This document shows, one piece after another, positions 8,508-24,575 of a DNA stretch of 30,792 nt; within the stretch, counting starts at the first letter, position 1, and every line of letters starts with the position of its first letter. Where the stretch lies: positions 1-30,792 of the IMG/VR virus record IMGVR_UViG_3300031746_000109, one strand, 5' to 3'. The position numbers and the translations under genes were made by a program. The notes under the pieces are model-generated. The model had not been told where the DNA came from. It saw nothing but the letters and a program-made list of their open reading frames with translations, and did no database searches. Source of the stretch: a virus.

Positions 8508-8804
8508 TCATTTGACCTTATCTTCCAACTTCTTTACCCGTTCTTCTAGTGTCGGTTGTTTCGGTGGTTCGTATCGTTCATAGCTATCGGGTTTCCACTC
8601 GTTTATATCTATGACCTCAACAATCCTTGTCTGCACTGGTATCTGGTCTACTCCATGTGTAGCCCACCTTAACGCCCAAGCATATTCGTTGCTACCGTCA
8701 TCTTTGACGAATGGGTACTCTTTTGTGGTATTCTCTATCGTCTTCTCTTGTGCGTATTGCCAACCTGCTAACTTACCATCTATAAAACGAGCAAGTATCT
8801 TCAT
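8508..8804 (-). CDS. Small fiber-associated protein with C-terminal coiled coil
   Basis: This 98-residue protein has a beta-like N-terminal half (MKILARFIDGKLAGWQY, later AWALRWATHGVD) and ends in a short charged heptad (LEERVKKLEDKV) that could oligomerise. It directly follows the second fiber gene with an ATGA overlap, the usual place for a fiber chaperone or a fiber-binding protein. No known fiber-assembly signature was recognised. The role is inferred only from the neighbourhood. Confidence 0.5.
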   Translation of the reverse strand: MKILARFIDGKLAGWQYAQEKTIENTTKEYPFVKDDGSNEYAWALRWATHGVDQIPVQTRIVEVIDINEWKPDSYERYEPPKQPTLEERVKKLEDKVK

Positions 8805-9736
8805 CGGATTGCCCCCACATAATAGCCCACAACATTAAGGTCAATATCTGGTGAAGCACCATAAGTATTTTTATATTCTAATATCTGTGATGCACTTTTT
8901 AAGGGTACTATTGTGGTACCAGTTGCATTACTGGTCAAAGTATACCCAGTTGCATCTGCAGATAGATCTCTTCTAAACCCTGTAATACAACCTGAAGTGG
9001 CGCCTAGGTGTGCTTCCATTAAGATTAAATCTGAAAACGCTGGAACAACCGCAGTACAAAGAACATTTATCCATGTTGTTGAAGTACCATTGGTCAAAAC
9101 GGCCTGAACTGTATCATAATACATCCAATCATTTTCTTGGTAGAATATTAGTATGTTACTACTTGCATCGTTCCTTACAGCACCGATACAGCGATACCAA
9201 GCACCACCTGATTGCCTATAAATTAACGTACCAGAGGTACTCGTTCCGCAGTTGGAATACTGGGGGGCAAGATTCCACCACTTGATATCCCAACTCGAAC
9301 CAGTATCATTATAGGCGTAGATATAAAACCAAGTACTTGCGGCATCGGCAGTACCCGCTACTTTGTTCGCATCTTCACTAACATCTATGGTTGTAGAAAC
9401 TGCCGTACGGGTATAAACTGAACCGTTTATCTCGACAACACCAGCAGTGGCATAAATAGTTTCCGCAGCCACATACACCAATTCCGCACCAGAGATATAG
9501 TCCTTTAAGGCACTGCTAATCAACTTAGAATCTGTACCGTCATGGTCGTGTCCAGTAGTTGTATTGAAAGCAATCTTACTTTCTACAATGGCGGCACTAT
9601 CACTAATATTTGTATTTGTAATACCGCCATTAACGACTGTGGTAATATCGTTCTGGATATTCTGAATATCGGCGCCACCAAGTATAGAACCATTATCCGC
9701 ACTACTGTAACTTTTCGACCAAGTAATATTTGCCAT
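8801..9736 (-). CDS. Tail fiber B, paralogue of the gene upstream
   Basis: The protein has 311 residues from the ATG at 9736. The N-terminal 70 residues (MANITWSKSYSSADNGSILG onward, through a GHDHDGTDS-type turn) are nearly the same as those of the gene just upstream. The rest is a Thr/Ser/Tyr-rich beta region with no similarity visible by eye. A common anchor with a divergent distal part is typical of fibers that attach to the same site but bind different receptors. The start at 9736 follows the upstream TAA by one base and matches the paralogue's first residues. A longer frame begins at 9814 but would place an unrelated hydrophobic stretch before the conserved start. The ribosome site is weak (GTGGTG), so reinitiation after the upstream stop is likely. 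Confidence 0.65.
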   Translation of the reverse strand: MANITWSKSYSSADNGSILGGADIQNIQNDITTVVNGGITNTNISDSAAIVESKIAFNTTTGHDHDGTDSKLISSALKDYISGAELVYVAAETIYATAGVVEINGSVYTRTAVSTTIDVSEDANKVAGTADAASTWFYIYAYNDTGSSWDIKWWNLAPQYSNCGTSTSGTLIYRQSGGAWYRCIGAVRNDASSNILIFYQENDWMYYDTVQAVLTNGTSTTWINVLCTAVVPAFSDLILMEAHLGATSGCITGFRRDLSADATGYTLTSNATGTTIVPLKSASQILEYKNTYGASPDIDLNVVGYYVGAIR

Positions 9737-9737
9737 T

Positions 9738-10730
9738 TTACACCACTCTATCTGTCCACGCAGTCCAATACACAGCAATAGAAGCAGTCGGGGCATAAAT
9801 AGTAAACGAACCACCAGTACCTGCTGCCTGTTGCGTTATATCAGTAATATTACCAGCAGTTGCCTCTGCAAACAATTCATGTTCCAATGTTGCCACTGTG
9901 CCATGCCTAAAGGTTACTTCTCCCGTTGCACTACCACCTCCAAGATGGGGGTCAGCAGTCTTTTCTCCATATTCAAATGTCTCAAACATATCAAACTTAT
10001 CTGTGGTATCTGGTGTTGTATCAGCAGGACTCCATACCTTCATATAACGTGGTGTCCACCCAGTAGTAATTATCATATTAGCAGCGGGACTTACAGCAGT
10101 AAAAGAGCCACAAGCAAAGTTACTCAAATCAAAGTTATTGTACAAATCCACTTGAAGGTCGGAACTTGCGTCTGTATGAACTATCCCAAGTAGTCTGTAC
10201 AATGTAGAACTGTATTTTTGGTAGCGCCATGGCACCTCTACCGCATTCTCACTTGAATCTGACAAATCTGGCGCCTCTGTTGCCAAACCGTACCCTATAG
10301 ACCCAGAATTGTTATAGGCATATACATATATGATCCCGCTTGCGGGACGACTATTGCCGTCTATCCAATTCCCAGTAACTATGTCGATATTGGCACTATT
10401 AGCAGTAGTCACAAATAACTTACCACCAATATCTATTACACCTGGCGTAACGACAATATCTTCATTATCAGTACCCTGTTTTAAGGTCATACCACGTCTG
10501 TAGTGCTTAATAAGGGGGTAACTCGCGTCTGTGCCGTTATGGGTATGCCCAGTGGTTAAAAAGGCAAGTTTACTCTCTTTAATGGCAGCAGAGGCATTGA
10601 CGTTAGAGTCTGTAATACCGCCATTGACTACGGTAGTGATATCATTCTGTAGGTTCTGTATATCCGCACCGCCTAAAATGGAACCGTTATCCGAAGCGCT
10701 ATATGACTTGGTCCACGAGATGTTTCCCAA
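9738..10730 (-). CDS. Tail fiber A, TTG start
   Basis: This 330-residue beta-rich protein shares its first 70 residues with the next gene: NISWTKSYS, DNGSILGGADIQNLQNDITT, then AAIKESKLAF and GHTHNGTD. The GHTHNGTD turn recurs in many phage fiber and tail-spike proteins. From about residue 80 it is a Thr/Ser/Gly-rich domain with no recognised enzyme motif. The start is a TTG at 10730, ten bases after AGGAGG. It was chosen because it aligns with the ATG-started paralogue. It lies 14 bases after a small fiber-domain gene. A receptor-binding or adaptor role is inferred. Confidence 0.65.
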   Translation of the reverse strand: MGNISWTKSYSASDNGSILGGADIQNLQNDITTVVNGGITDSNVNASAAIKESKLAFLTTGHTHNGTDASYPLIKHYRRGMTLKQGTDNEDIVVTPGVIDIGGKLFVTTANSANIDIVTGNWIDGNSRPASGIIYVYAYNNSGSIGYGLATEAPDLSDSSENAVEVPWRYQKYSSTLYRLLGIVHTDASSDLQVDLYNNFDLSNFACGSFTAVSPAANMIITTGWTPRYMKVWSPADTTPDTTDKFDMFETFEYGEKTADPHLGGGSATGEVTFRHGTVATLEHELFAEATAGNITDITQQAAGTGGSFTIYAPTASIAVYWTAWTDRVV

Positions 10731-10744
10731 TTTTAAGTTTCCTC

Positions 10745-10996
10745 CTATGTTACCAGGTCAAATGCCTGGCTTGAATACCAACTACCACCATGATACTTAT
10801 AGACCTTGAACGTCGCGCCAGTAATAACTCGGCGCGTCTCGCCTTCAAATCCTGGAGAACTTGCTGTAGGGACTGAGGTATAAGACTTCTCCTCATACGC
10901 CCCTTCGTTAAGTATCTCCACCATCTCCTGAAGCATCTGAAGCAAGCGCGGGTCTGTAGTCTGCTTGTTTAACTTTATGTCGCTGACGATGCTCAT
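10745..10996 (-). CDS. Small tail-associated protein with a beta-type C-terminus
   Basis: This 83-residue protein has an N-terminal helix (LLQMLQEMVEILNEG) followed by a beta stretch (PGFEGETRRVITGATFKVYK, then HGGSWYSSQAF). That GE-R...xxYKY...GGSWY pattern is seen in small phage tail or fiber accessory proteins. Its ATG overlaps the stop of the hub gene by ATGA and the first fiber gene follows, so it may link fiber to tail hub. Function is inferred; the family is not named with confidence. Confidence 0.55.
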   Translation of the reverse strand: MSIVSDIKLNKQTTDPRLLQMLQEMVEILNEGAYEEKSYTSVPTASSPGFEGETRRVITGATFKVYKYHGGSWYSSQAFDLVT

Positions 10997-12774
10997 TTTT
11001 CACCCTTCGTTATGGCTATCTGTGTCCCTACAAGATTATAGGAATAAAGAGTCCACGGATTGGTAGTCAGGCTGTCACTTATCTTAAACTGTATGTAGTT
11101 AGATTGGGTATCAAGCCCTATGGTCTTTTCTATTACTGGCTTTGCCGGTCCAAGAGTCCCTGTTCCAAGAACAAGACCCCGCCTTGTAGTCCCGAGATAG
11201 TATTCCCCACTCGAATTGCCAAGAGGAACGGTTACCGCAGACGACCAAGCACTTGTATAATCCTCTCTATGACAGAAGCTTACCGTATCGTCGCTTATGG
11301 CCTTCATATTCACTATTACCTGCCTCTGTTCTTTTAAGACAGCAGAATTATCTATAAACATTCTTGGTGTGGTATGGTAAGCAGATACAGTGGCAGTTGT
11401 TACAGCAGTAATACTTATTGTGCAACCAGACCCTGTTCCTCCCACTGTGGCTTGTCCAGTTCCAGTAGCATATCCTACACCGGCTTTTACCAATGTTACT
11501 GCGGTTACTATTCCGCTACTTGCAACTACTGAAACTGTACCTCCCATACCACTATCTCCAACAACCGTCAACACATCTCCTGTAGTATACCCAGTCCCGC
11601 CAGCGGTCGGGGCAGAAGCCACAGTGCTAATTGCACCCCAATCTGTATTTCCATAATTCCACCTGTAAGCGTAGCCATCATAGCCAGCCACAATAACCCA
11701 TTTCCTACCATTAGAGTCAACGGCTGATGCGCTCGATTTCAATACTTGACCCGAGAAAGGCCAAACTGCCCCTGTGTAGTAGTTATAGGCAAGGGCATGA
11801 GTTATTGTGCTTGTCCCGCCATTCGGCACAAAGACCACATACCAATGATTAACTGAGTCCACTATAGCATGAGCATATACTAGCCCGCCTTGATTAAGGG
11901 TATCCATAGCGATAGGGCAGATTTCATTACTTTCCTCAAAGGCGGCCGATACCGCATTACAGTTAGAGCCATCAAACTGATATAGCTTACGGTCTGACCC
12001 CAAGAACATAAGGACTTCTTCGCCTGACTTTAGGATAACGTTCTTCATCGTTAAGGGCGAACGAGTCCCGGCCCATGCTCTTTGTTGCACAGCCCAATAC
12101 GGTGAACCACCTCTATAGGTCGCTTGGTGTATAGACCACCGCTTTGAGGCATAAAGCCGTCCTTCCAACTCCATCCACCCTGTTAGTTCATCCCCATCAT
12201 GGGTGTTGATAGGCCAAGTACCGCCATTAGCAAAGTCGTCTATATCGGCTGACTCCGCGTAGTAGAATGTGTAGGGGTAGCCAGGCACTCCCGAAACAAT
12301 GAAGTGGTCTTTATAGACCTTCGGGTGCTTACCGCGTCCCCCCACATTAGAAGTGTTAAGATTTGTAAGGGAAGTCCCTCCTGTCTGCATGGTCTTGATA
12401 TAGTCCCCGCCCCAGTTGCAGATAAAGAGGTTACCCTGATAGTTCTCACATTGTATCGTTTCGTCGCTCATATTCTCTTGGAGACTATCCCACGTACCGT
12501 CCATTTCATCCATCTTATAGTAGGTAGTCCCAAAACTCCCTATCAACGTTCCTTCCCAGTCAAAGAGACCATGACCATCCTTACTACCAGCTCCTGCTTG
12601 TGTGGAATTAAGTTTTGTCCTACCATTTCGTTTATGAAGAGAACCGTCCAAGTCGGCATAGACATCCATACAGTCAGGCGTATGCTTAATACTCATACCG
12701 TTCAGTTCTTTGACCTTGGTATTCAAACCTCCGCTAAAGTCGGAAATCCCACTTACTCTATCTGTCCTAAGCAT
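10993..12774 (-). CDS. Tail hub / head stabilisation protein (beta-propeller-like)
   Basis: This 593-residue protein opens with GISDFSGGLNTKVKELNG and a DLDGSLHKRNG block, the pattern of the podovirus tail-hub or stabilisation proteins (P22 gp10-like in function) that close the portal tube. The body has repeated beta blades with conserved aromatics, such as GLFDWEGTLIGS, RLYASKRWSI and YGYAYRWN-like stretches (here YDGYAYRWNYG). Residues about 378-461 look like an inserted Gly/Thr-rich domain with repeated GGTGYTTGDVLTV-type units. The gene overlaps the adaptor stop as TAATG, giving the adaptor-hub order expected of short-tailed phages. Family assignment comes from pattern and synteny. Confidence 0.65.
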   Translation of the reverse strand: MLRTDRVSGISDFSGGLNTKVKELNGMSIKHTPDCMDVYADLDGSLHKRNGRTKLNSTQAGAGSKDGHGLFDWEGTLIGSFGTTYYKMDEMDGTWDSLQENMSDETIQCENYQGNLFICNWGGDYIKTMQTGGTSLTNLNTSNVGGRGKHPKVYKDHFIVSGVPGYPYTFYYAESADIDDFANGGTWPINTHDGDELTGWMELEGRLYASKRWSIHQATYRGGSPYWAVQQRAWAGTRSPLTMKNVILKSGEEVLMFLGSDRKLYQFDGSNCNAVSAAFEESNEICPIAMDTLNQGGLVYAHAIVDSVNHWYVVFVPNGGTSTITHALAYNYYTGAVWPFSGQVLKSSASAVDSNGRKWVIVAGYDGYAYRWNYGNTDWGAISTVASAPTAGGTGYTTGDVLTVVGDSGMGGTVSVVASSGIVTAVTLVKAGVGYATGTGQATVGGTGSGCTISITAVTTATVSAYHTTPRMFIDNSAVLKEQRQVIVNMKAISDDTVSFCHREDYTSAWSSAVTVPLGNSSGEYYLGTTRRGLVLGTGTLGPAKPVIEKTIGLDTQSNYIQFKISDSLTTNPWTLYSYNLVGTQIAITKGEK

Positions 12775-13910
12775 TAAGCATATCTCCGATCTCGTAGAAA
12801 TGCACCGTGTTGCCCGTAGATTGCCCGGCCGTCTCTGCCTTTAAGACCCTGCATCTTACTCGTAGCAATATCACTCCACTTCTTAGCATCCTGGTTATTC
12901 GGGTCTAACCGGACTGCGGCAAGGTATATCATCAGGTGGTCAAACTTAGCCGGCCATCTCGATACCCTTGAAATCGTATAGGTATCGGTTGACGTACCGC
13001 TTGATATAGATGTTCCGAGATAGGCACTACTTAGCGCAATCGCGGTATTAGTAGTCGCACTTAAAACCTTATACCACTGACTTGCCGAACCTACACCATC
13101 GGCATCAACACGAAGGTAATAGTCGTAAGTAGAGGTTGCTATATTCCCATCCCAATCAGATCCATAACCTGTAACGTCCACAGAACCATTTGTAATAGCC
13201 GAGATATACCCTGTCGTATACTCTGTCATAGGCACAAGGGCTGGAATATAGTTATAGTATATCGAGCGTGCGCTTGTATCAGCAGGATTAAGATAAAGGT
13301 AAGGCGCCCCTGCTACATACTTAACCGCATACTCACCCGGCGTACCGTAGGTATGACTCCAGTTCCTATCATACTCTCCACCGTCCATAGGGGTAAGAAA
13401 GGCTTTGGACCCACTACGCCAGTAATAAACCGCCTCGGGAATATCTTTATCGTCTATGACCATATGGTTAAAGTCGCTCGCTAAGGCATACCTGTCCTGA
13501 ACAAGCCTATATGACGTGTTTGTAGCCACAATAGCTGTACCTACCCACGTTCGGTCTAAGGTAAGGGCTACAGCACTACTGTACGTAACGCGATAGACCT
13601 CATCATACCCTGCTACCTTTAAGAGCATGTTATTCGCTATGGCAGATGTCCAGTCGCAGTCACCATCCCCAGTAACCGCGGTAGTACTTATAGCGGTAAT
13701 ATATCCTGTTCCATAGTCAGCTACCGTTGAGACATAACTTTCCGTACGGAGATAGTCCTCATGGAACATAAGCATAAGGTCTTCCATGTAGGCTTCGTTG
13801 ATGGCACCCTTATACTTGTTTTCGGTAGCTGAGTCTGTTGACTTATCACGGACAAGTTCATTCTGTGCGATCTCGAACATTTCCGTAAATGGTATACGAC
13901 TTATATTCAT
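12774..13910 (-). CDS. Head-tail adaptor protein with duplicated beta insert
   Basis: The protein has 378 residues. The N-terminus is helical (FTEMFEIAQNELVRD, then NKYKGAINEAYMEDLMLMF). The C-terminus is again helical, with FDHLMIYLAAVRL and a basic end. These ends resemble the adaptor that docks under the portal in podoviruses. Between them are two similar beta segments at about residues 66-140 and 230-317, each with TGYIxAI, a D-W block, a YxVxxxxxxxALxL block and a closing SYRL- or YTIS-type strand. They look like a tandem domain duplication. Spacing and AAGGAGG at the ATG are ideal, and the tail-hub gene overlaps its end. Adaptor identity is inferred from architecture and order. Confidence 0.6.
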   Translation of the reverse strand: MNISRIPFTEMFEIAQNELVRDKSTDSATENKYKGAINEAYMEDLMLMFHEDYLRTESYVSTVADYGTGYITAISTTAVTGDGDCDWTSAIANNMLLKVAGYDEVYRVTYSSAVALTLDRTWVGTAIVATNTSYRLVQDRYALASDFNHMVIDDKDIPEAVYYWRSGSKAFLTPMDGGEYDRNWSHTYGTPGEYAVKYVAGAPYLYLNPADTSARSIYYNYIPALVPMTEYTTGYISAITNGSVDVTGYGSDWDGNIATSTYDYYLRVDADGVGSASQWYKVLSATTNTAIALSSAYLGTSISSGTSTDTYTISRVSRWPAKFDHLMIYLAAVRLDPNNQDAKKWSDIATSKMQGLKGRDGRAIYGQHGAFLRDRRYA

Positions 13911-13919
13911 CTATCCTCC

Positions 13920-14000
13920 TTATTTTACTCTACCCTTTTTATGATGCTCCCCTTCTTCGTGTTTCTTCCCTCGTATTCTATAACCGCAGGAGCATTTCAT
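13920..14000 (-). CDS. 26-residue CxC micro-protein
   Basis: The predicted peptide begins MKCSCGYRIRGKKHEEGEHH and is very basic. Its ATG overlaps the TGA of the preceding membrane-protein gene (ATGA), and its TAA lies just before the AAGGAGG of the adaptor gene, so it fills the intergenic space exactly. The C-x-C pair with three nearby His residues could bind a metal. Short peptides starting with MKCxCGY seem to recur in phage structural operons, but this is recollection rather than a search. Coding status is likely, function unknown. Confidence 0.5.
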   Translation of the reverse strand: MKCSCGYRIRGKKHEEGEHHKKGRVK

Positions 14001-14254
14001 TGTTTCCCGTTTATCACCTTATCAGTTAAAGCATACACTACCTTAGCATTATCCAGTTTAGCCAGTATCCTATCTATATTCTTATCGTGATTTTTTACAG
14101 TGGTAGTAAGTCCACCCCAAAGGACAAGAAATGCCCCCACCTGGATTAAGATAGCAAGGGATATGGTGAATATAGTTGCTTTCAGCCCTTTGGTACTCTC
14201 CATAAACTCCTTAAACTTACCGATGTTTTCTTCCTGTATGCAATCATGTGCCAT
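13997..14254 (-). CDS. Single-pass membrane protein (holin or XhlA-like)
   Basis: From the ATG at 14254 the protein has 85 residues. It has a polar N-terminus (MAHDCIQEENIGKFKEFMES), one hydrophobic segment at about residues 30-51, and a C-terminal charged helix (HDKNIDRILAKLD). This layout resembles phage XhlA-like or accessory holin proteins. A GTG one codon upstream is also in frame, but ATG has AAGGAG at the better distance of six bases. The gene lies between the LamG-like gene and the adaptor gene rather than beside the putative holin. A lysis role is therefore only possible. Confidence 0.5.
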   Translation of the reverse strand: MAHDCIQEENIGKFKEFMESTKGLKATIFTISLAILIQVGAFLVLWGGLTTTVKNHDKNIDRILAKLDNAKVVYALTDKVINGKQ

Positions 14255-14278
14255 CACCTTCTCCTTAAAAGTTAGTGG

Positions 14279-15145
14279 TTATTGAATTAGGAATATACGC
14301 CTAACGCCCCCTACTACCGCCGCCTTAATCATATCCCAGTCCGTAGTCGGTTTAATAAAACAATACGGGTCTATATACAGTTGCTGGATTTCGGAGGGGG
14401 AGAGGACACGGGAGTAGATATAAACAAAATTTATATACCCAGTTAAGAATACACTACCATAAACACCGAATTGCATATTCGTTGTAGGATTTCTTAGCGT
14501 ATCTGCTGTTGTTGCTGTTATAGCCCCTAATTTCCCATTTACATATACTCTTACTTCTTTACCTTTTTGCCACGAACCAACAAGCATACAAGGTTTGTTT
14601 ATAACTTGCGCCGTTGTTCCTTGTGCTGTTCGAGCGGCAGCACCACCACTCGTTGTAACAATAGAAAAATATGGAAACATAGTATTTGTGGTTAAATTTA
14701 GTTGAATACTCCAACCATTACTATCAAGCCATCCCCAAGAAGTACCATCAGAACCTTTCGTAACTAACATCGGATTTGTCACCGATTGTGGATAAAATAA
14801 ACCAACTATCGTAAAAGAATTATTTTCACCCAGCAATCCTGTTCCTATCGTATTTATAGTCCCTAATGGTGAGGAATGAAGTGTTCCCATACCTTTAGAA
14901 GATATACCCCACCTTTGCGGTTGAGCAACTACACTTCTAAGCAAACAATTATGTTTTTTTAATAAATCATATCCGACCAAACCATTACCTTCATTTAGAA
15001 GCCATGCCCCAACCAATCCACAACTTAATGGATGGCTCCAATCGATTTGGGAGCCGACGGGAGGCTTGCTTGACCACGGAGTTTTTGCCTCGCAAGGAAT
15101 TACAAGTAAAGATAAAATCAGTAATAGATATAAAACTTTCTTCAT
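14279..15145 (-). CDS. Secreted-type LamG/concanavalin-like protein
   Basis: The 288-residue protein starts with a signal peptide: MKK, a Leu/Ile run, then PCEA before KTPW, with no lipobox. The mature part has the laminin-G/concanavalin-like layout often found in phage tail proteins: GLVGAWLLNEGNG, then NSFTIVGLF, later VRVYVNGKLGA, and RVLSPSEIQQLYIDPYC at the end. Such beta-sandwich domains usually bind glycans. The final stretch (WDMIKAAVVGGVRRIF) resembles the short C-terminal tail of other phage LamG proteins. Its ATG overlaps the stop of the previous signal-peptide gene. Glycan binding is inferred from fold; export from the N-terminus. Confidence 0.65.
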   Translation of the reverse strand: MKKVLYLLLILSLLVIPCEAKTPWSSKPPVGSQIDWSHPLSCGLVGAWLLNEGNGLVGYDLLKKHNCLLRSVVAQPQRWGISSKGMGTLHSSPLGTINTIGTGLLGENNSFTIVGLFYPQSVTNPMLVTKGSDGTSWGWLDSNGWSIQLNLTTNTMFPYFSIVTTSGGAAARTAQGTTAQVINKPCMLVGSWQKGKEVRVYVNGKLGAITATTADTLRNPTTNMQFGVYGSVFLTGYINFVYIYSRVLSPSEIQQLYIDPYCFIKPTTDWDMIKAAVVGGVRRIFLIQ

Positions 15146-15837
15146 TAAATTCCTGTCATTTTAATTAATCTTGCTCTTGTATGAATATCTGTTCCCGTTG
15201 CGAGTATATTGTCATATACAACCCTGACTCTATATGCGGTATCGGGGATATTGACTACATATTGAGCAACAGGCGAATACGGTTGGCCTACTCCATTTAT
15301 TGACCAAATAGTGCCTGCGGCAGTAGTTTGTGCATTTGTAATTCCATCAAGAACTGTAATTGTGTCATCTGCATCAGCACTATGGGCTGTCTGAAAACAA
15401 ATTTCAGAATTAGCGATAGTAGTGTTTTCAATGTAAATCCATTTTCCATCGTGGTCAAGATTATTTGAAATAGGTGCATCAACCGAAAGAACTGTCTGTC
15501 CAGCATCTTCATTCACAAATATAGCTCTTGTAAATGGCGTTCCAGTCGGGCCTCCGAAACTTGTCAATACTTCCCAGTCTGCGTCACCAGTAGTGTTAGT
15601 GGAAATCTCCACCCAAATTATAGCACCTACAGTTTCAGCTGCGGCTTCGGCAAGGCAGACATCAATGGCTAAAGTTGTCTGATAGTTAGGAGAAACATCA
15701 ACAGTAGCACCCTCTCTTGCTGTTCCTGCTGCAACTTCCGCCCAAATATCTGCGGATTCTACGGCTTTTGTTAAGGCGGCATGAGCAGGAGAACACATAA
15801 GCAATAAAACAAGTGTTAGTCCTAATATCTTCTTCAT
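15145..15837 (-). CDS. Secreted-type beta-rich protein of the fiber block
   Basis: This 230-residue protein begins MKK, followed by a Leu-rich core (LGLTLVLLLMC), and has a good AHA|A cleavage site near residue 20. The mature part is acidic, Thr/Ala-rich and probably beta sandwich, with WVEIS, WEVLTSFGG and a C-terminal AYRVRVVYD. It has no enzyme motif. It overlaps the upstream small gene by ATGA, has GGGAGG before its ATG, and is coupled to the LamG-like gene by TAATG. A part in a surface-exposed or fiber complex with its secreted neighbours is inferred. Confidence 0.55.
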   Translation of the reverse strand: MKKILGLTLVLLLMCSPAHAALTKAVESADIWAEVAAGTAREGATVDVSPNYQTTLAIDVCLAEAAAETVGAIIWVEISTNTTGDADWEVLTSFGGPTGTPFTRAIFVNEDAGQTVLSVDAPISNNLDHDGKWIYIENTTIANSEICFQTAHSADADDTITVLDGITNAQTTAAGTIWSINGVGQPYSPVAQYVVNIPDTAYRVRVVYDNILATGTDIHTRARLIKMTGI

Positions 15838-16109
15838 AGAACAAGTCCTCCCTGAATTGCGGTAACGGCAGTATCTAATTGACTACTATTAAAAATAACC
15901 TGTGCCGATTTATAATGATTGATTTCTTCCTGAATCACCTCAATCATCTTTGTTGTCTTTTGAGAAGGGGAATCTCCTTCAAAAAATTGACAGGAAAAGT
16001 CTTTGTTCAAGACCTCTACTGTCCCCTCTTTCAAGACAAGATTAAATACGATTGTATGCAATTTCGGTTGTGTATAAGTAACTGATTTTTTAGTAACTAT
16101 AGCCGTCAT
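15834..16109 (-). CDS. Small protein of unknown function in the fiber block
   Basis: This 91-residue protein has beta strands at the N-terminus (KLHTIVFNLVLKEGTVEV) and a central to C-terminal helical part (MIEVIQEEINHYKSAQ). It has no signal peptide, unlike its neighbours. AAAAGGAGG precedes the ATG, and the stop overlaps the next ATG as ATGA. Small genes in this position can be fiber chaperones or tail accessory proteins, but nothing in the sequence decides this. Confidence 0.5.
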   Translation of the reverse strand: MTAIVTKKSVTYTQPKLHTIVFNLVLKEGTVEVLNKDFSCQFFEGDSPSQKTTKMIEVIQEEINHYKSAQVIFNSSQLDTAVTAIQGGLVL

Positions 16110-16120
16110 AAATCCTCCTT

Positions 16121-19100
16121 TTATTGAGCATCCACTGTATATTTAATCGCTATTGTATAATCATCTGTTTCAGGCGCAACAGCGTTTGTAACATCAAACC
16201 TTAATATCTCACCCACAACTAAGGTATTTCCTGCTGTTACTGCGGCAAAGGTAGCGTTTGTTCCATGTGCTACGGCTGTAGGACTTCCACCTGTTATTGT
16301 CATAGCATTACCAGAACCATCTTCGAGAGTTATAGTCGCTGGCGTTGTTCCTGTTCCGATATAAGATACTGCTATACCTGTTATTGTTACAGCTTCGGAA
16401 AACATGCCTAACGATTTATTATCGTCAGCGGCGGCAAGGTCTTCTATTACACATGATTTTTCTTCCTCATATCTTAAAACCCTTTTTGACGCACCAAAAT
16501 AAACTAACTGGTCATCAGTAGTATCTAAAGCAATTTCACCTATTGCATCAACAACTGGTGCGGCATCATTCGGCACTTCAAGAGAGGTCGCCCCGCCAAA
16601 ATCCCAAGCGGCGGTAAAGTCTAAAGCAATCGTCGCTTTCGTCCCATTTGCTCCTGGGAATATATCGTTTGCCGAACCAGTAACAGGAGAGGTGCAGACT
16701 AAATCACCAAGAATATTTACCCCTATATCCCCTAAAGCCGATAGAGTAGCCGGAGCCGTAGCACTCACCGCAACCGTTCCTGAAGCGTTAGGAAAATTTA
16801 TTGTTTTATCCGATGTAGTGGGGTCAATAACGCCAATGATTGTTTCTACTGTATCATCGGTAGTGCCTTCAAAAGCCATTGACTTGCTTGCGCCTAATTC
16901 TAATGCTTGAGTAGGCCCCGTCGTCCCGATGCCGACGTTGCCGTCGAATCTTACATTCCCCTCGTCAACCCATAACGCATAAGAATTAGTAATGGAAGCG
17001 CTACCGGAAGCAGTTGGAGCATTTCTGATATAAAGCGTGGATGCTGTTGTAACGGCCAAAGCAGATGCGGCGGTTATATCCGGTTCTAAAAATCTTGTTC
17101 CTACCATACCCGTGTTTGCGCCCGTCATCGTTAGCTGGCCTATCCAAATATCATTGATAATGTGGGAACCTGTAGACATATTTCCATAATAGGAAGTGGC
17201 CCTCAATCCACCTAAATTGGCGTGTGATTTCTTTAGCGTAAAAAAAGTGTCTGCTTCGGTGGCAGATGTAGCCGAGTGGCTAATATCAGAAGATTTTAAA
17301 GCTAATATTTCATCATCATTACCAGCTTGATTGATAGTTAATCCTTGAGTCGAAAAAGTATTTGCCGTATCGCCAAAAAAGACATTACCCGACGCAACTT
17401 CAAGTTTGCCCCCCGGCGCCGTCGTCCCGATGCCGACTTTGCCGTCTTTAAGATATAAAGTATTCACCAAAGCCCCAGCATTTACAGAAGTAAAAGCCGC
17501 CACCGAATTGTTAGTAAGGGTAAAATCTCCACCTGGATTTATGTTAGTGATTACTGGACTTGAAATGGTAGGTGCTTGATTAAATACTGCCAAAGGCGAG
17601 CCAGAGGCAGAACCTGTTTCATCACTTAAAGCCCCATAAAGCCCTGCTGATGTTGACTGATTGGTTATCACCCCACCTGTTGTCATTGTCATTATTGAAG
17701 TCGCCGCAGGCTCATCAGCAGGCAGGTAGAATGAGGCCGCAGAGGTCATTGCGGTATTAGAATATAGACTGGCGATATAATCAGTAGCTCCTTGCTCGGA
17801 GTAAAGTTTGAGAAGTCCAGATGTCCCATTTGCGCCAAGTTGTAGAGTGCCGCCTGTAATTACACTAATATCAGTAACTACTAAATCGCCGTATATCTTT
17901 ACATCGTCTAAATCATCAGAATCACCAACAGTTAATACAGTTTGTCCACTTACTCCGTCATTATTATTTACAGTTAATCCTGTAGCGGTTATTTGTCCCG
18001 CCCCGAGAGTGCCGGTGGTAGCATAATTAGTTGCCCTTGTAGCTACTGAACTATCCACCCAATATTGAGTATGGTCATCATCTGCAAGACCTGTTAAAAC
18101 TCCGTGGTCAGTAGCAACATAAGTTCCTGCGGGTAAGTTTGATATTGTTCTTAAATCTTGCGCTTCTTCATAAGGCGTTGCGTCATTTCTAAGAATTACC
18201 CTATAAAGAAGTTTCATCTCTTGAAATGGTAGAGTCCCGAGAGTTAAACTTTCATATCTATTATTTGTTCTTGCATCAGCTATATTAGCGTCTGTCCTCT
18301 GTCCGATTAACGAAACTATCGGAGTAGTCGTATCGTTAGTAGCGAATATCCACACTGCCATATATTGATTAGCACCTAAAGCAGTTAAGACATTTCCATT
18401 ATTATAGTTTAAGTCCGAACCGCCATCCTCATAATAATACTTGGTCTGTCCAGCAAGCCACTTAAAATCTGCCGCACCATCTTTATATAAGACATTACAA
18501 GTTGTTTGTGCAGGAGTGATGGTATGTTCTAAATCTTCATCGTTTATCACACCTAACGCAACCGAGAATGTGGCATCAGCGAAAGTTCCCGCCAAACCAC
18601 TTTCATATCTTACCCCTACGGTATTGTGCATTAAGTGGTGAGTATCACCATCCATCTTAATCCCGTGGCGTTCTTCGCCAAAAAGCCCCTTATCGGTAAC
18701 TGTGTTGTAATATATTGTGGCTATAAAGGGTAAAGCAAACGAAGAAATAGAAGTTGCCTGCGAAAGAACTCCAGAAGCGTTATAGTAAATCCAATTCATA
18801 CCCGTTGCGTCATCTAAAGTAATTGATGCGGTAGTCTTGGAAGTTTTAACTCCATTGATATAGATATCGTGATTGCCTGTGATAGTAAACACTCTCGTTG
18901 CATCTACAAAACTTAAAGTAGCTGTTCTATCTACAAATCCAGAGGGTTCGGTCATTGCAGTAAATACAGTAGGGATTTCTACGGAGTTAAATGTTCCTAT
19001 GCCTGTGGTGGTAAGATTTCCCGCTGTAAAGTTATAATCTCCAGTAGTAGTATCTCCACCCAATTTAAGGAATAGGTCATCTATGGTAGGTGAGGCCCAT

Positions 19101-19333
19101 GTTCCCCCTAATTCACCGCCTGGGGAGGTTCCTACGACTATTTCAGCGGATAATGAGCCATTAGCTGTGCCTACGAGGTAGTCTGCGTCTGTGGGGGCGC
19201 CACCGCCAGCGCCTGTTGCCTCATAATAATCGAGTTCACCTGTGAACGGGTTCAGGCGCCATGCCGCGTAGACACCCGTAACTACCCAAAACACCAAATA
19301 GAATAGTAGTAGACCTGATATGAGTTTCTTCAT
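16121..19333 (-). CDS. Large tail-fiber-like protein with N-terminal signal sequence
   Basis: The protein has 1070 residues. Residues 1-23 look like a Sec signal (MKK, a hydrophobic core, VYA|A). Next comes WRLNPFTGELDYYE, a common fiber N-terminal pattern. A large domain at about 120-430 includes ERHGIKMDGDTHHLMHNT and DDDHTQYW turns found in phage fibers. Further on are Gly/Thr-rich repeats and two GIGTT-x-P...LE units (VGIGTTAPGGKLE, VGIGTTGPTQALE) that occur in trimeric fibers and intramolecular chaperone fibers. The C-terminal 110 residues form a separate beta domain. The N-terminal hydrophobic stretch is unusual for a fiber, since fibers normally assemble in the cytoplasm. The start abuts the upstream stop (TAA-ATG). 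Fiber identity is fairly clear; the receptor is unknown. Confidence 0.7.
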   Translation of the reverse strand: MKKLISGLLLFYLVFWVVTGVYAAWRLNPFTGELDYYEATGAGGGAPTDADYLVGTANGSLSAEIVVGTSPGGELGGTWASPTIDDLFLKLGGDTTTGDYNFTAGNLTTTGIGTFNSVEIPTVFTAMTEPSGFVDRTATLSFVDATRVFTITGNHDIYINGVKTSKTTASITLDDATGMNWIYYNASGVLSQATSISSFALPFIATIYYNTVTDKGLFGEERHGIKMDGDTHHLMHNTVGVRYESGLAGTFADATFSVALGVINDEDLEHTITPAQTTCNVLYKDGAADFKWLAGQTKYYYEDGGSDLNYNNGNVLTALGANQYMAVWIFATNDTTTPIVSLIGQRTDANIADARTNNRYESLTLGTLPFQEMKLLYRVILRNDATPYEEAQDLRTISNLPAGTYVATDHGVLTGLADDDHTQYWVDSSVATRATNYATTGTLGAGQITATGLTVNNNDGVSGQTVLTVGDSDDLDDVKIYGDLVVTDISVITGGTLQLGANGTSGLLKLYSEQGATDYIASLYSNTAMTSAASFYLPADEPAATSIMTMTTGGVITNQSTSAGLYGALSDETGSASGSPLAVFNQAPTISSPVITNINPGGDFTLTNNSVAAFTSVNAGALVNTLYLKDGKVGIGTTAPGGKLEVASGNVFFGDTANTFSTQGLTINQAGNDDEILALKSSDISHSATSATEADTFFTLKKSHANLGGLRATSYYGNMSTGSHIINDIWIGQLTMTGANTGMVGTRFLEPDITAASALAVTTASTLYIRNAPTASGSASITNSYALWVDEGNVRFDGNVGIGTTGPTQALELGASKSMAFEGTTDDTVETIIGVIDPTTSDKTINFPNASGTVAVSATAPATLSALGDIGVNILGDLVCTSPVTGSANDIFPGANGTKATIALDFTAAWDFGGATSLEVPNDAAPVVDAIGEIALDTTDDQLVYFGASKRVLRYEEEKSCVIEDLAAADDNKSLGMFSEAVTITGIAVSYIGTGTTPATITLEDGSGNAMTITGGSPTAVAHGTNATFAAVTAGNTLVVGEILRFDVTNAVAPETDDYTIAIKYTVDAQ

Positions 19334-19699
19334 TTACATTTCGCTTCCCCATGATTGATACGCATTCGTGGTCGCCCTGGCTGCCCACCCTGTTGAATAT
19401 CCGGTTGTTCCACTCTCATACGCATACACGTCCGCGCCCGCGCTAACCGTTTCCTTAATTATTATCCAAGATCCGTCAGCCGCCTCAAACCCATAGTAGT
19501 TAGGTGTAGCATCATCGTCCTTGTTGCATATCGTATAGTGCTTCCCTGCCATAACCGTCAGACCGTAAGAACCACCGAACTTCTCTACCTGAGCCTTACG
19601 CCCTGAGACATCCTTATCCTCTATCTTAACGCTCGTAGACGCGGCATATAGAGGTATTGTATATAACATAAAAATACAAAGAACAAGTAATCTTTTCAT
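19334..19699 (-). CDS. Small secreted-type protein preceding the large fiber
   Basis: This 121-residue protein begins MKRLLVLCIFMLYTIPLYAA, a good signal-peptide layout with cleavage near 19-20. The mature domain is about 100 residues with several aromatic and Gly residues (GGSYGLTVMAGKHYTICN, then YAYESGTTGYSTGW) and is probably all beta. It overlaps the coiled-coil gene by ATGA and abuts the large fiber gene, suggesting a coupled set. No family was recognised. It might cap or bind the fiber. Confidence 0.5.
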   Translation of the reverse strand: MKRLLVLCIFMLYTIPLYAASTSVKIEDKDVSGRKAQVEKFGGSYGLTVMAGKHYTICNKDDDATPNYYGFEAADGSWIIIKETVSAGADVYAYESGTTGYSTGWAARATTNAYQSWGSEM

Positions 19700-23684: not shown

Positions 23685-24575
23685 TTACGCGGGAATATTT
23701 TCGTAGCCCCAATGCCAATCATCCCAGCTGGTGCCGCACCTGTAGTAGCTGATATAGCTGGCTACCAAGGTATTGCTATCCTTATCCTGGAACATCTGGA
23801 TTGGTTCGCGGTTCCACCAAATCAAGTATTCCTTCATCATGGCATAGTCTACCATCCACCAATTTTCGGCGTCTGTCAGCCTATCCCAAACCATGAGCTT
23901 ATACTTGCCCTGATGGAAGTTGACGTTATTATCCGCGGTGTCAACCTTTCCCTTAGAATTGATAATCTCGTAACCCGTTTCCTCAAGGGAGCGAGGTATG
24001 ATGATTGAATCCGGGTTTACCGAGATTTGTTCTCCTATGTCGCCATAGAAGTCGTACATCGCCAGCCGGGTCGTCTCTACGTTCGTCGCACCAAGAGTAA
24101 GCGTACTCTCGTTTGACTGCGTAGCTACGCCGCTGACGTTTGACGGATGGTCTGAGGCAAACAGCTCGCAACCATCTCCATCCGAAGGTTCATAGGTCGT
24201 GCCGAGAATAAATACGTTGGCACCCTGCTTCTCCCTCGAACGATTTGCCGAAGTAGCCAAACCTGTCGGGAAACGATTTACGACACGATTCTGGTCATCG
24301 CTCGCCAGCTTGTGCTGTATCATAATCTTCGCAGCATACTCTGTGAACGTAATGACCTTGTCGTAGCCCTGGCTTCTCTCTACTTCGCCTACTTTTCCAG
24401 TGAACTCCTGGTGGTCCGGTACCTGTCCAACGGACGAGGATTTCTCAAAGGCCTTATCTGAGGTAAGGACGTTGAATATATCCGGAACCATCGCAGGGAG
24501 CTTCTTATACTGGTCAATGTAAATGATACGAAAATCCGTCTCAAGTACATCATTCCAATTAGCAGCTAAGTGCAT
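23685..24575 (-). CDS. Major capsid protein
   Basis: This 296-residue protein has the features of a HK97-fold or Mu gpT-like capsid protein: an N-terminal helix region with AMVPDIFNVLTSDKAFEKSS, an E-loop-like stretch (EFTGKVGEVERSQGYD), LFASDHPSN in the middle, and the C-terminal YISYYRCGTSWDDWHWGYEN that closes many phage capsid proteins. It has no signal peptide. The position after scaffold and a possible decoration protein, with a strong GGAGG site, supports it. It builds the shell in hexamers and pentamers around the scaffold. Confidence 0.75.
   Translation of the reverse strand: MHLAANWNDVLETDFRIIYIDQYKKLPAMVPDIFNVLTSDKAFEKSSSVGQVPDHQEFTGKVGEVERSQGYDKVITFTEYAAKIMIQHKLASDDQNRVVNRFPTGLATSANRSREKQGANVFILGTTYEPSDGDGCELFASDHPSNVSGVATQSNESTLTLGATNVETTRLAMYDFYGDIGEQISVNPDSIIIPRSLEETGYEIINSKGKVDTADNNVNFHQGKYKLMVWDRLTDAENWWMVDYAMMKEYLIWWNREPIQMFQDKDSNTLVASYISYYRCGTSWDDWHWGYENIPA

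Follow-up and report, generated by a model that had tools for sequence, protein, structure and literature searches.

Predicted Sec signal peptides on a fiber and lectin-like gene cassette of tailed phages, present in some relatives and absent in others in front of the same N-termini

The DNA analyzed here (hereafter, “the window”) is an IMG/VR virus record of 30,792 bases whose likely genes all lie on the minus strand (Table 1). Its capsid protein is ~ 24% identical to that of Pelagibacter phage HTVC023P, and its capsid relatives, found in Pelagibacter, Roseobacter, and other phages, show 23–31% identity. Gene calls are ORF-based and several family labels are weak; the start of the second of two paralogous fiber-like proteins is an inner ATG, chosen by comparison with the first paralogue. 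Signal peptides are abbreviated as SP, and proteins with and without one are referred to as SP+ (or tagged) and SP-less.

Table 1. Genes of the window in gene order
Feature	Coordinates	Strand	Remarks
Terminase fragment		minus	Assigned by position and sequence; PHROG match uninformative
Portal		minus	phrog_1216
Major capsid protein	23685..24575	minus	phrog_371, E = 4.9e-17; no SP
Series of small proteins, followed by the block with four SP genes		minus	
P0001	19334..19699	minus	121 aa; predicted SP 1-19, then ASTSV...; score 5.36
P0002, fiber	16121..19333	minus	1070 aa; predicted SP 1-23; score 5.68
91-aa protein inside the cassette	15834..16109	minus	No SP
P0003 (P3 family)	15145..15837	minus	230 aa; predicted SP 1-20, then ALTKAV...; score 6.04
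P0004, LamG-like lectin	14279..15145	minus	Predicted SP 1-20, then KTPWSSKPPVGSQIDWSHPLS...; score 4.62
86-aa protein	13997..14257	minus	One membrane span, by eye
Adaptor-like tail protein	12774-13910	minus	Label inferred from order and sequence
Nozzle-like tail protein	10993..12774	minus	ISDFSGGLNTK; no SP; label inferred from order and sequence
Two paralogous fiber-like proteins	8801..10730	minus	No SP; MGNISWTKSY / MANITWSKSY
Probable internal virion proteins and membrane proteins		minus	Internal label inferred from order and sequence

An initial annotation had described four consecutive genes with Sec signal peptides in this block, and the coordinates and strand it gave for them are exact. 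We scored N-termini with a program written for this analysis, which combines n-region charge, a hydrophobic core, and the -3/-1 rule. On 93 annotated E. coli proteins, the same proteins on which the threshold of 4.3 was set, it passed every secreted protein (20/20), 3/4 lipoproteins, a single inner-membrane protein (1/23, the TolA anchor), and no cytoplasmic protein (0/46). All four N-termini exceed this threshold, with scores of at least 4.6, and have the positive n-region, hydrophobic core, and small -3/-1 residues typical of Sec/SPase I substrates; the predicted cuts (marked by a slash) are MKRLLVLCIFMLYTIPLYA/AS for P0001, MKKLISGLLLFYLVFWVVTGVYA/AW for P0002, MKKILGLTLVLLLMCSPAHA/AL for P0003, and MKKVLYLLLILSLLVIPCEA/KT for P0004. 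The only other pass, both among the 178 six-frame ORFs of at least 40 aa in the window and among its 29 other genes, is a 62-aa holin-like ORF, and shuffled N-termini pass in 0.4–5% of trials. The start codons look right, as they follow Shine-Dalgarno-like sequences and/or abut or overlap the upstream stop. The run itself is less continuous than first described: the four tagged genes are four out of five, with the untagged 91-aa gene lying between the fiber and P0003.

Two other readings of these N-termini were considered and rejected. By eye, there is no lipobox at the predicted cuts to suit a lipoprotein (SPase II) signal, the nearest case being VIPC in P0004 with Pro at -1. A SAR or signal-anchor reading does not fit either, as the cores are Leu-rich and have -3/-1 sites rather than being Gly/Ala-rich without a cleavage site.

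The proteins belong to distinct families. P0001 is a remote member of a small pre-fiber family that is SP-less in loci L025, L058, L004, and L087 (45% identity over 47 aa to L025:946-1218). The fiber P0002 contains two of the GIGTTxP units noted initially, has the predicted mature N-terminus AWRLNPFTGELDYY with the motif AWRL-NPFTGELDYY, and carries a receptor-like module (residues ~ 104-458) that it has in common, at 70–90% identity, with SP-less fibers of other phages. Homologues of the 91-aa protein with 50–65% identity occur in SP+ and SP-less cassettes alike (L084 65%, L160 54%, L087 53%, L072 51%). Behind its signal peptide, P0003 is a two-domain beta protein (AlphaFold pLDDT 83.8); Foldseek matched P3 to a single phage protein whose function is unknown (TM 0.75/0.86), and its PDB matches were weak, with tailspike domains aligning locally over ~ 95 columns. 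PDB sequence searches with P3 and the fiber gave no match. P0004 is LamG-like, as had been proposed (Laminin_G_3, PF13385, E = 4.5e-12, 46.8 bits versus a curated cut-off of 27.6). As a single IMG/VR query it had no confirmed relatives; a family alignment then found 69 related loci, mostly SP-less. Against cultured phages, P0003, P0004, and their cassette relatives had no match. PHROG profiles gave no informative match for the SP proteins of the window, and SP+ relatives match phrog_3287, phrog_1640, and phrog_2234.

Comparison with homologues, which the initial annotation had recommended, reveals that SP-less and SP-bearing forms have the same (mature) N-terminus. Residues 21-230 of P0003 are 52% identical to residues 2-210 of its SP-less homologue in L084. 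For the fiber, a scan for NPFTGKLDY found 47 IMG/VR loci and one genome contig; the scan of about 85,000 genomes for the fiber motif matched this one MAG contig only. In all 17 distinct SP-less fibers, M[GAPS]xxx stands exactly before NPFTGKLDY, with starts of the form M[GAPS]-[WYLF]-x-F, and position 2 always permits removal of Met by methionine aminopeptidase. SP+ fibers (n = 12) have 4–9 mature residues between predicted cut and motif, and the window has 4; for this count the SP+ class was defined by a looser limit of 3.7, which brings in L029 and L034, and L025, a likely SP+ fiber with an inner start, lies outside the script’s count. The correspondence can be read directly from MAWKF-NPFTGKLDYY (L041, no SP), YS/AWKF-NPFTGKLDYY (L029, for which the scorer placed the cut one residue off or gave 3.88, under 4.3), and YA/AWRL-NPFTGELDYY (window). 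Likewise, the KPP..HPL motif of the LamG family lies a few residues after the start in about 50 SP-less loci and soon after the predicted cut in SP+ members, and the L105 fiber consists of the N-terminal domain of BPP-1 Bbp9 preceded by a 16-residue tag. Even where P3 is circularly permuted (L070 and L076), a signal peptide again precedes the new N-terminus; SP-less permuted forms also exist. By comparison among these homologues, the tagged proteins are very probably exported and cleaved by signal peptidase.

The initial annotation had advised looking for the same signal-peptide run in related phages, and searches that used P0003 and a LamG pattern found it. At least three other phage contigs (L069, identical to L071; L070; L076) have the order SP+ fiber, 91–100-aa SP-less protein, SP+ P3, and SP+ LamG, and there are two close variants: L078 has the last three cassette genes plus one further SP gene, and L092 has an SP+ fiber, a 102-aa gene, SP+ P3, and SP+ LamG. 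The small cassette gene is tagged nowhere and is 51–54% identical to the window’s in close SP+ cassettes and 65% in the SP-less cassette of L084. Small genes similar in size to the window’s 86-aa gene follow LamG in other cassettes (L069 6092-6364, L070 7601-7885). Because the surroundings are siphovirus-like by eye in L069 and L092 (tape-measure-like and head-tail joining-like genes) and podovirus-like in the window and in two further relatives, G001 and G002, the cassette is common to different phage backgrounds. The shared cassette, the untagged gene within it, and the window’s SP-less fiber-like proteins (8801-10730) had been overlooked in the initial annotation.

Tags on adjacent genes tend to occur together. 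P3, directly upstream of LamG, is tagged in 8/8 loci with a tagged LamG (window included) versus 4/47 with an untagged one (raw Fisher p = 4e-7), where the loci are not independent of each other, some upstream genes of the SP-less set are perhaps not true P3 homologues, and the SP+ LamG of L105 was called by eye, the scorer excluding Pro at +1. The four P3 passes beside an untagged LamG were judged false by eye, post hoc, as they have no hydrophobic core; dropping them gives 0/47 (p = 8e-10). Genes neighboring a tagged LamG are themselves tagged in 18/66 cases versus 25/477 near an untagged LamG (p = 2e-7), and other ORFs near NPFTGKLDY fibers pass the scorer in 7/78 cases if the fiber is SP+ and in 6/335 if it is SP-less. 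There are also mixed loci, L117 and L120, in which an SP+ spike-like gene lies 5 kb from an SP-less LamG. The LamG tree requires 4 tag changes (bootstrap 3–5) and, with many weak nodes, rejects a single SP+ clade modestly (AU p = 0.033), which lends modest support to more than one tag switch; a sign test on independent pairs had too few pairs for any inference.

In the two larger relatives the tagged set extends further. Seven consecutive genes pass the scorer in G001 (46,850 bases): two small genes, a nozzle-like protein, a tail-protein-like gene, the fiber, P3, and LamG. The tagged nozzle-like protein matches phrog_3287 and is the only copy in the 46.9-kb record. In G002 (42,026 bases), the tagged genes are a nozzle-like protein, the gene that follows it, two small genes, the fiber, P3, and LamG; here the nozzle-like protein shows weak homology (25%) to the window’s untagged one, with the ISDFSGGLNTK stretch at residue 25 versus residue 4 in the window. 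Terminase, portal, capsid, adaptor-like, and internal proteins (roles assigned partly by position) are untagged in both, and a few small membrane proteins elsewhere also pass the scorer.

Textbook accounts place the assembly of tailed phages in the cytoplasm, and phage fibers and sugar-binding proteins normally become part of the virus while still within the host cell. The initial annotation proposed that this phage exports surface proteins, and that part of its reading is well supported, as far as sequence comparison goes, by the matching SP+ and SP-less N-termini and by the joint change of P3 and LamG tags. It does not apply to all appendages: since the 91-aa protein, the nozzle-like protein, and the two fiber-like proteins of the window are SP-less, the phage does not export every one of them. 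Among the purposes listed at the outset, periplasmic or late assembly fares best, as the exported set in relatives reaches the nozzle-like protein and stops at the head; for the capture of debris or competing phages, we found nothing in favor in particular.

Our preferred explanation, which we hold at about even odds, is that all four are appendages on the outside of the virion with cleavable Sec tags, the virion being completed outside the cytoplasm. By comparison with homologues, the proteins are very probably exported and cut by signal peptidase I, which would give them the same N-terminus as SP-less relatives have once methionine aminopeptidase has acted. Heads might meanwhile be filled in the cytoplasm while the appendages fold elsewhere, either in the periplasm or beyond it. 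At lysis the mature N-termini could then dock onto the particle, so that it is finished outside the cytoplasm, which would require heads lacking a nozzle to keep their DNA for long enough; the SP-less cassettes would do the same job through ordinary cytoplasmic assembly. Completion outside the cytoplasm is favored because the docking-like N-termini are conserved and nozzle-like proteins are tagged. T4 complementation provides a relevant precedent, in that separately made tail parts join particles in mixed extracts (PMC9576892). The mixed loci L117 and L120 and the untagged proteins of the window (the 91-aa, nozzle-like, and two fiber-like proteins) count against this explanation, and the conserved N-terminus could serve self-assembly instead of docking. 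More tentatively, and with somewhat less than even confidence, we envisage a two-compartment build for some tailed phages, in which heads filled with DNA in the cytoplasm are joined at lysis by a nozzle, fibers, and lectins that Sec has exported, and in which evolution changes the compartment through the joint gain or loss of signal peptides on genes whose products interact.

The strongest competitor, which we regard as possible and would lean against, is that in SP+ phages the exported proteins do not belong to the virion and that the infected cell releases or displays them as lectins and decoy fibers, either to mask receptors (superinfection exclusion, with less progeny lost on debris) or for cell adhesion. 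LamG has a lectin-like fold, further fiber-like proteins of the window phage are SP-less, and a secreted copy of the fiber could occupy the same receptor, given how closely its receptor-like module resembles those of SP-less fibers. There are parallels in PblB of a pneumococcal prophage, a tail protein reported as a surface adhesin and predicted to have a signal peptide (PMC4508584), and in cultured pelagiphages, where an SP protein and an SP carbohydrate-binding-like protein are encoded as a pair close to lysis genes. However, the docking-like N-termini are still conserved in tagged forms, the tagged set of G001 and G002 includes nozzle-like proteins without an obvious cell-surface role, and there is neither a lipobox nor an obvious surface anchor.

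A special case of assembly outside the cytoplasm is that export serves folding or quality control rather than timing, either by keeping sticky receptor-binding parts away from heads and cytoplasmic sugars or by giving access to Ca2+ or disulfide chemistry. Beta-rich lectins and fibers are indeed typical periplasmic folds, but we noticed no cysteine enrichment, and the SP-less P3 of L084 has more cysteines than the SP+ P0003; we consider this version improbable. The initial annotation raised the alternative of uncleaved virion anchors; that the hydrophobic N-termini stay uncut and serve as anchors, whether in the virion or in the inner membrane, also seems decidedly improbable. The long hydrophobic cores, the aromatic residues in that of P0002, and the inability of scoring to prove cleavage speak for it, but most SP+ members have small -3/-1 residues just before the family’s conserved start, and SP-less homologues begin at the same residue, which anchors would not need; this shared mature N-terminus and the P3 and LamG tags changing in step make anchors unlikely. 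An artifact of wrong start codons or chance hydrophobic N-termini is very improbable, despite metagenomic ORFs, a home-made scorer, and four weak P3 passes judged false, as sequences resembling ribosome-binding sites and overlaps with the preceding stop mark the tagged starts, the first mature codon is one for Ala or Lys rather than a start codon, and the pattern recurs in unrelated contigs.

A cassette that gains and loses cleavable signals together while keeping its mature N-terminus constitutes a natural experiment on where virions finish. The tag toggles while the protein behind it stays nearly unchanged, which hints that some phages finish or deploy particle parts outside the cytoplasm. 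The cassette also offers sets of receptor-binding and lectin proteins, predicted to be exported, that lend themselves to testing, and it may be a superinfection or adhesion system, and the NPFTGKLDY N-terminal peptide motif looks like a docking element.

In the open-licence literature, we found no precedent for runs of SP-bearing fibers, and NPFTGKLD appears in no paper. In one paper, phage DGR proteins are described as lacking signal peptides, and this absence was taken as support for the phage origin of a binding protein (PMC6199706). Sec signals are already known in phages from SAR endolysins and the T4 antiholin RI (PMC8385771; PMC3765740), but these act in lysis, whereas the window proteins include a fiber and a lectin. 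PblA and PblB of streptococcal prophages are tail-module proteins reported as surface adhesins, with a signal peptide predicted for one PblB (PMC4508584). PblB differs in being a single protein of a Gram-positive prophage for which no cassette-wide tagging or switching is described. Phages HTVC023P (whose capsid is the one related to the window’s at 24%) and HTVC033P encode two adjacent SP-like proteins, one of them annotated as carbohydrate-binding in HTVC033P; this pair differs from the window’s block in comprising two genes of other protein families. Laminin_G_3 lectin-like phage proteins are also comparable: P0004 is above the Pfam cut-off and has about 50 SP-less IMG/VR phage relatives, and the LamG genes with a signal peptide, that of the window and those of 7 other loci, in every case have a tagged P3 gene upstream. 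Finally, the podovirus tail protein Bbp9 of BPP-1, although of a different family from the window’s fiber, has an N-terminal domain homologous to the SP+ fiber of L105 (36% over 132 aa); both come from a late structural region, and Bbp9 begins directly with the domain that in L105 follows the tag.

The receptor-like module of the predicted exported fibre P0002 (residues ~104-458) is 70-90% identical in fibres of other phages that have no predicted signal peptide. Asn-rich, signal-peptide-bearing proteins with the fibre-family motif NPFTGKLDY are encoded at L035, L037, L046 and L053, which may come from viruses of another host group. At L117 and L120, spike-like proteins (EFFRD../DYFRDVV..) with a signal peptide lie ~5 kb upstream of a LamG protein without one, so predicted export status is mixed inside a single phage.

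Relative to the window's P3, a two-domain beta protein, two related loci encode circular permutants in which the C-terminal domain (ADDTITVLDG...) forms the N-terminus after the signal peptide; permuted forms at L085, L095, L104 and L121 have no signal peptide. Elsewhere, two inserted genes, glycosyltransferase-like by eye, separate the fibre from a signal-peptide-less cassette, and one phage-contig ORF consists nearly throughout of Gly-Arg repeats.

Coordinates of window features and related loci
Feature	Locus	Position
P0002 receptor-like module	window	17960-19024
Same module, signal-peptide-less fibres	L003, L004, L006, L007, L008	
P3	window	15145-15837
Permuted P3	L070	5941-6645
Permuted P3	L076	5392-6087
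Glycosyltransferase-like insertion	L084	4900-7067
Gly-Arg repeat ORF	G002:C1	18192-18776
HTVC023P gp45-46	L065	19448-21523
HTVC033P gp46-45	L151	2761-5039
Mosig Thr/Asn-rich protein	L150	1250-2023

The cultured Pelagibacter phages HTVC023P, HTVC033P and Mosig encode a Thr/Asn-rich signal-peptide protein. Close to lysis genes, a second, carbohydrate-binding-like gene follows it, with a signal peptide in HTVC033P and with a signal-peptide score slightly below threshold in HTVC023P.
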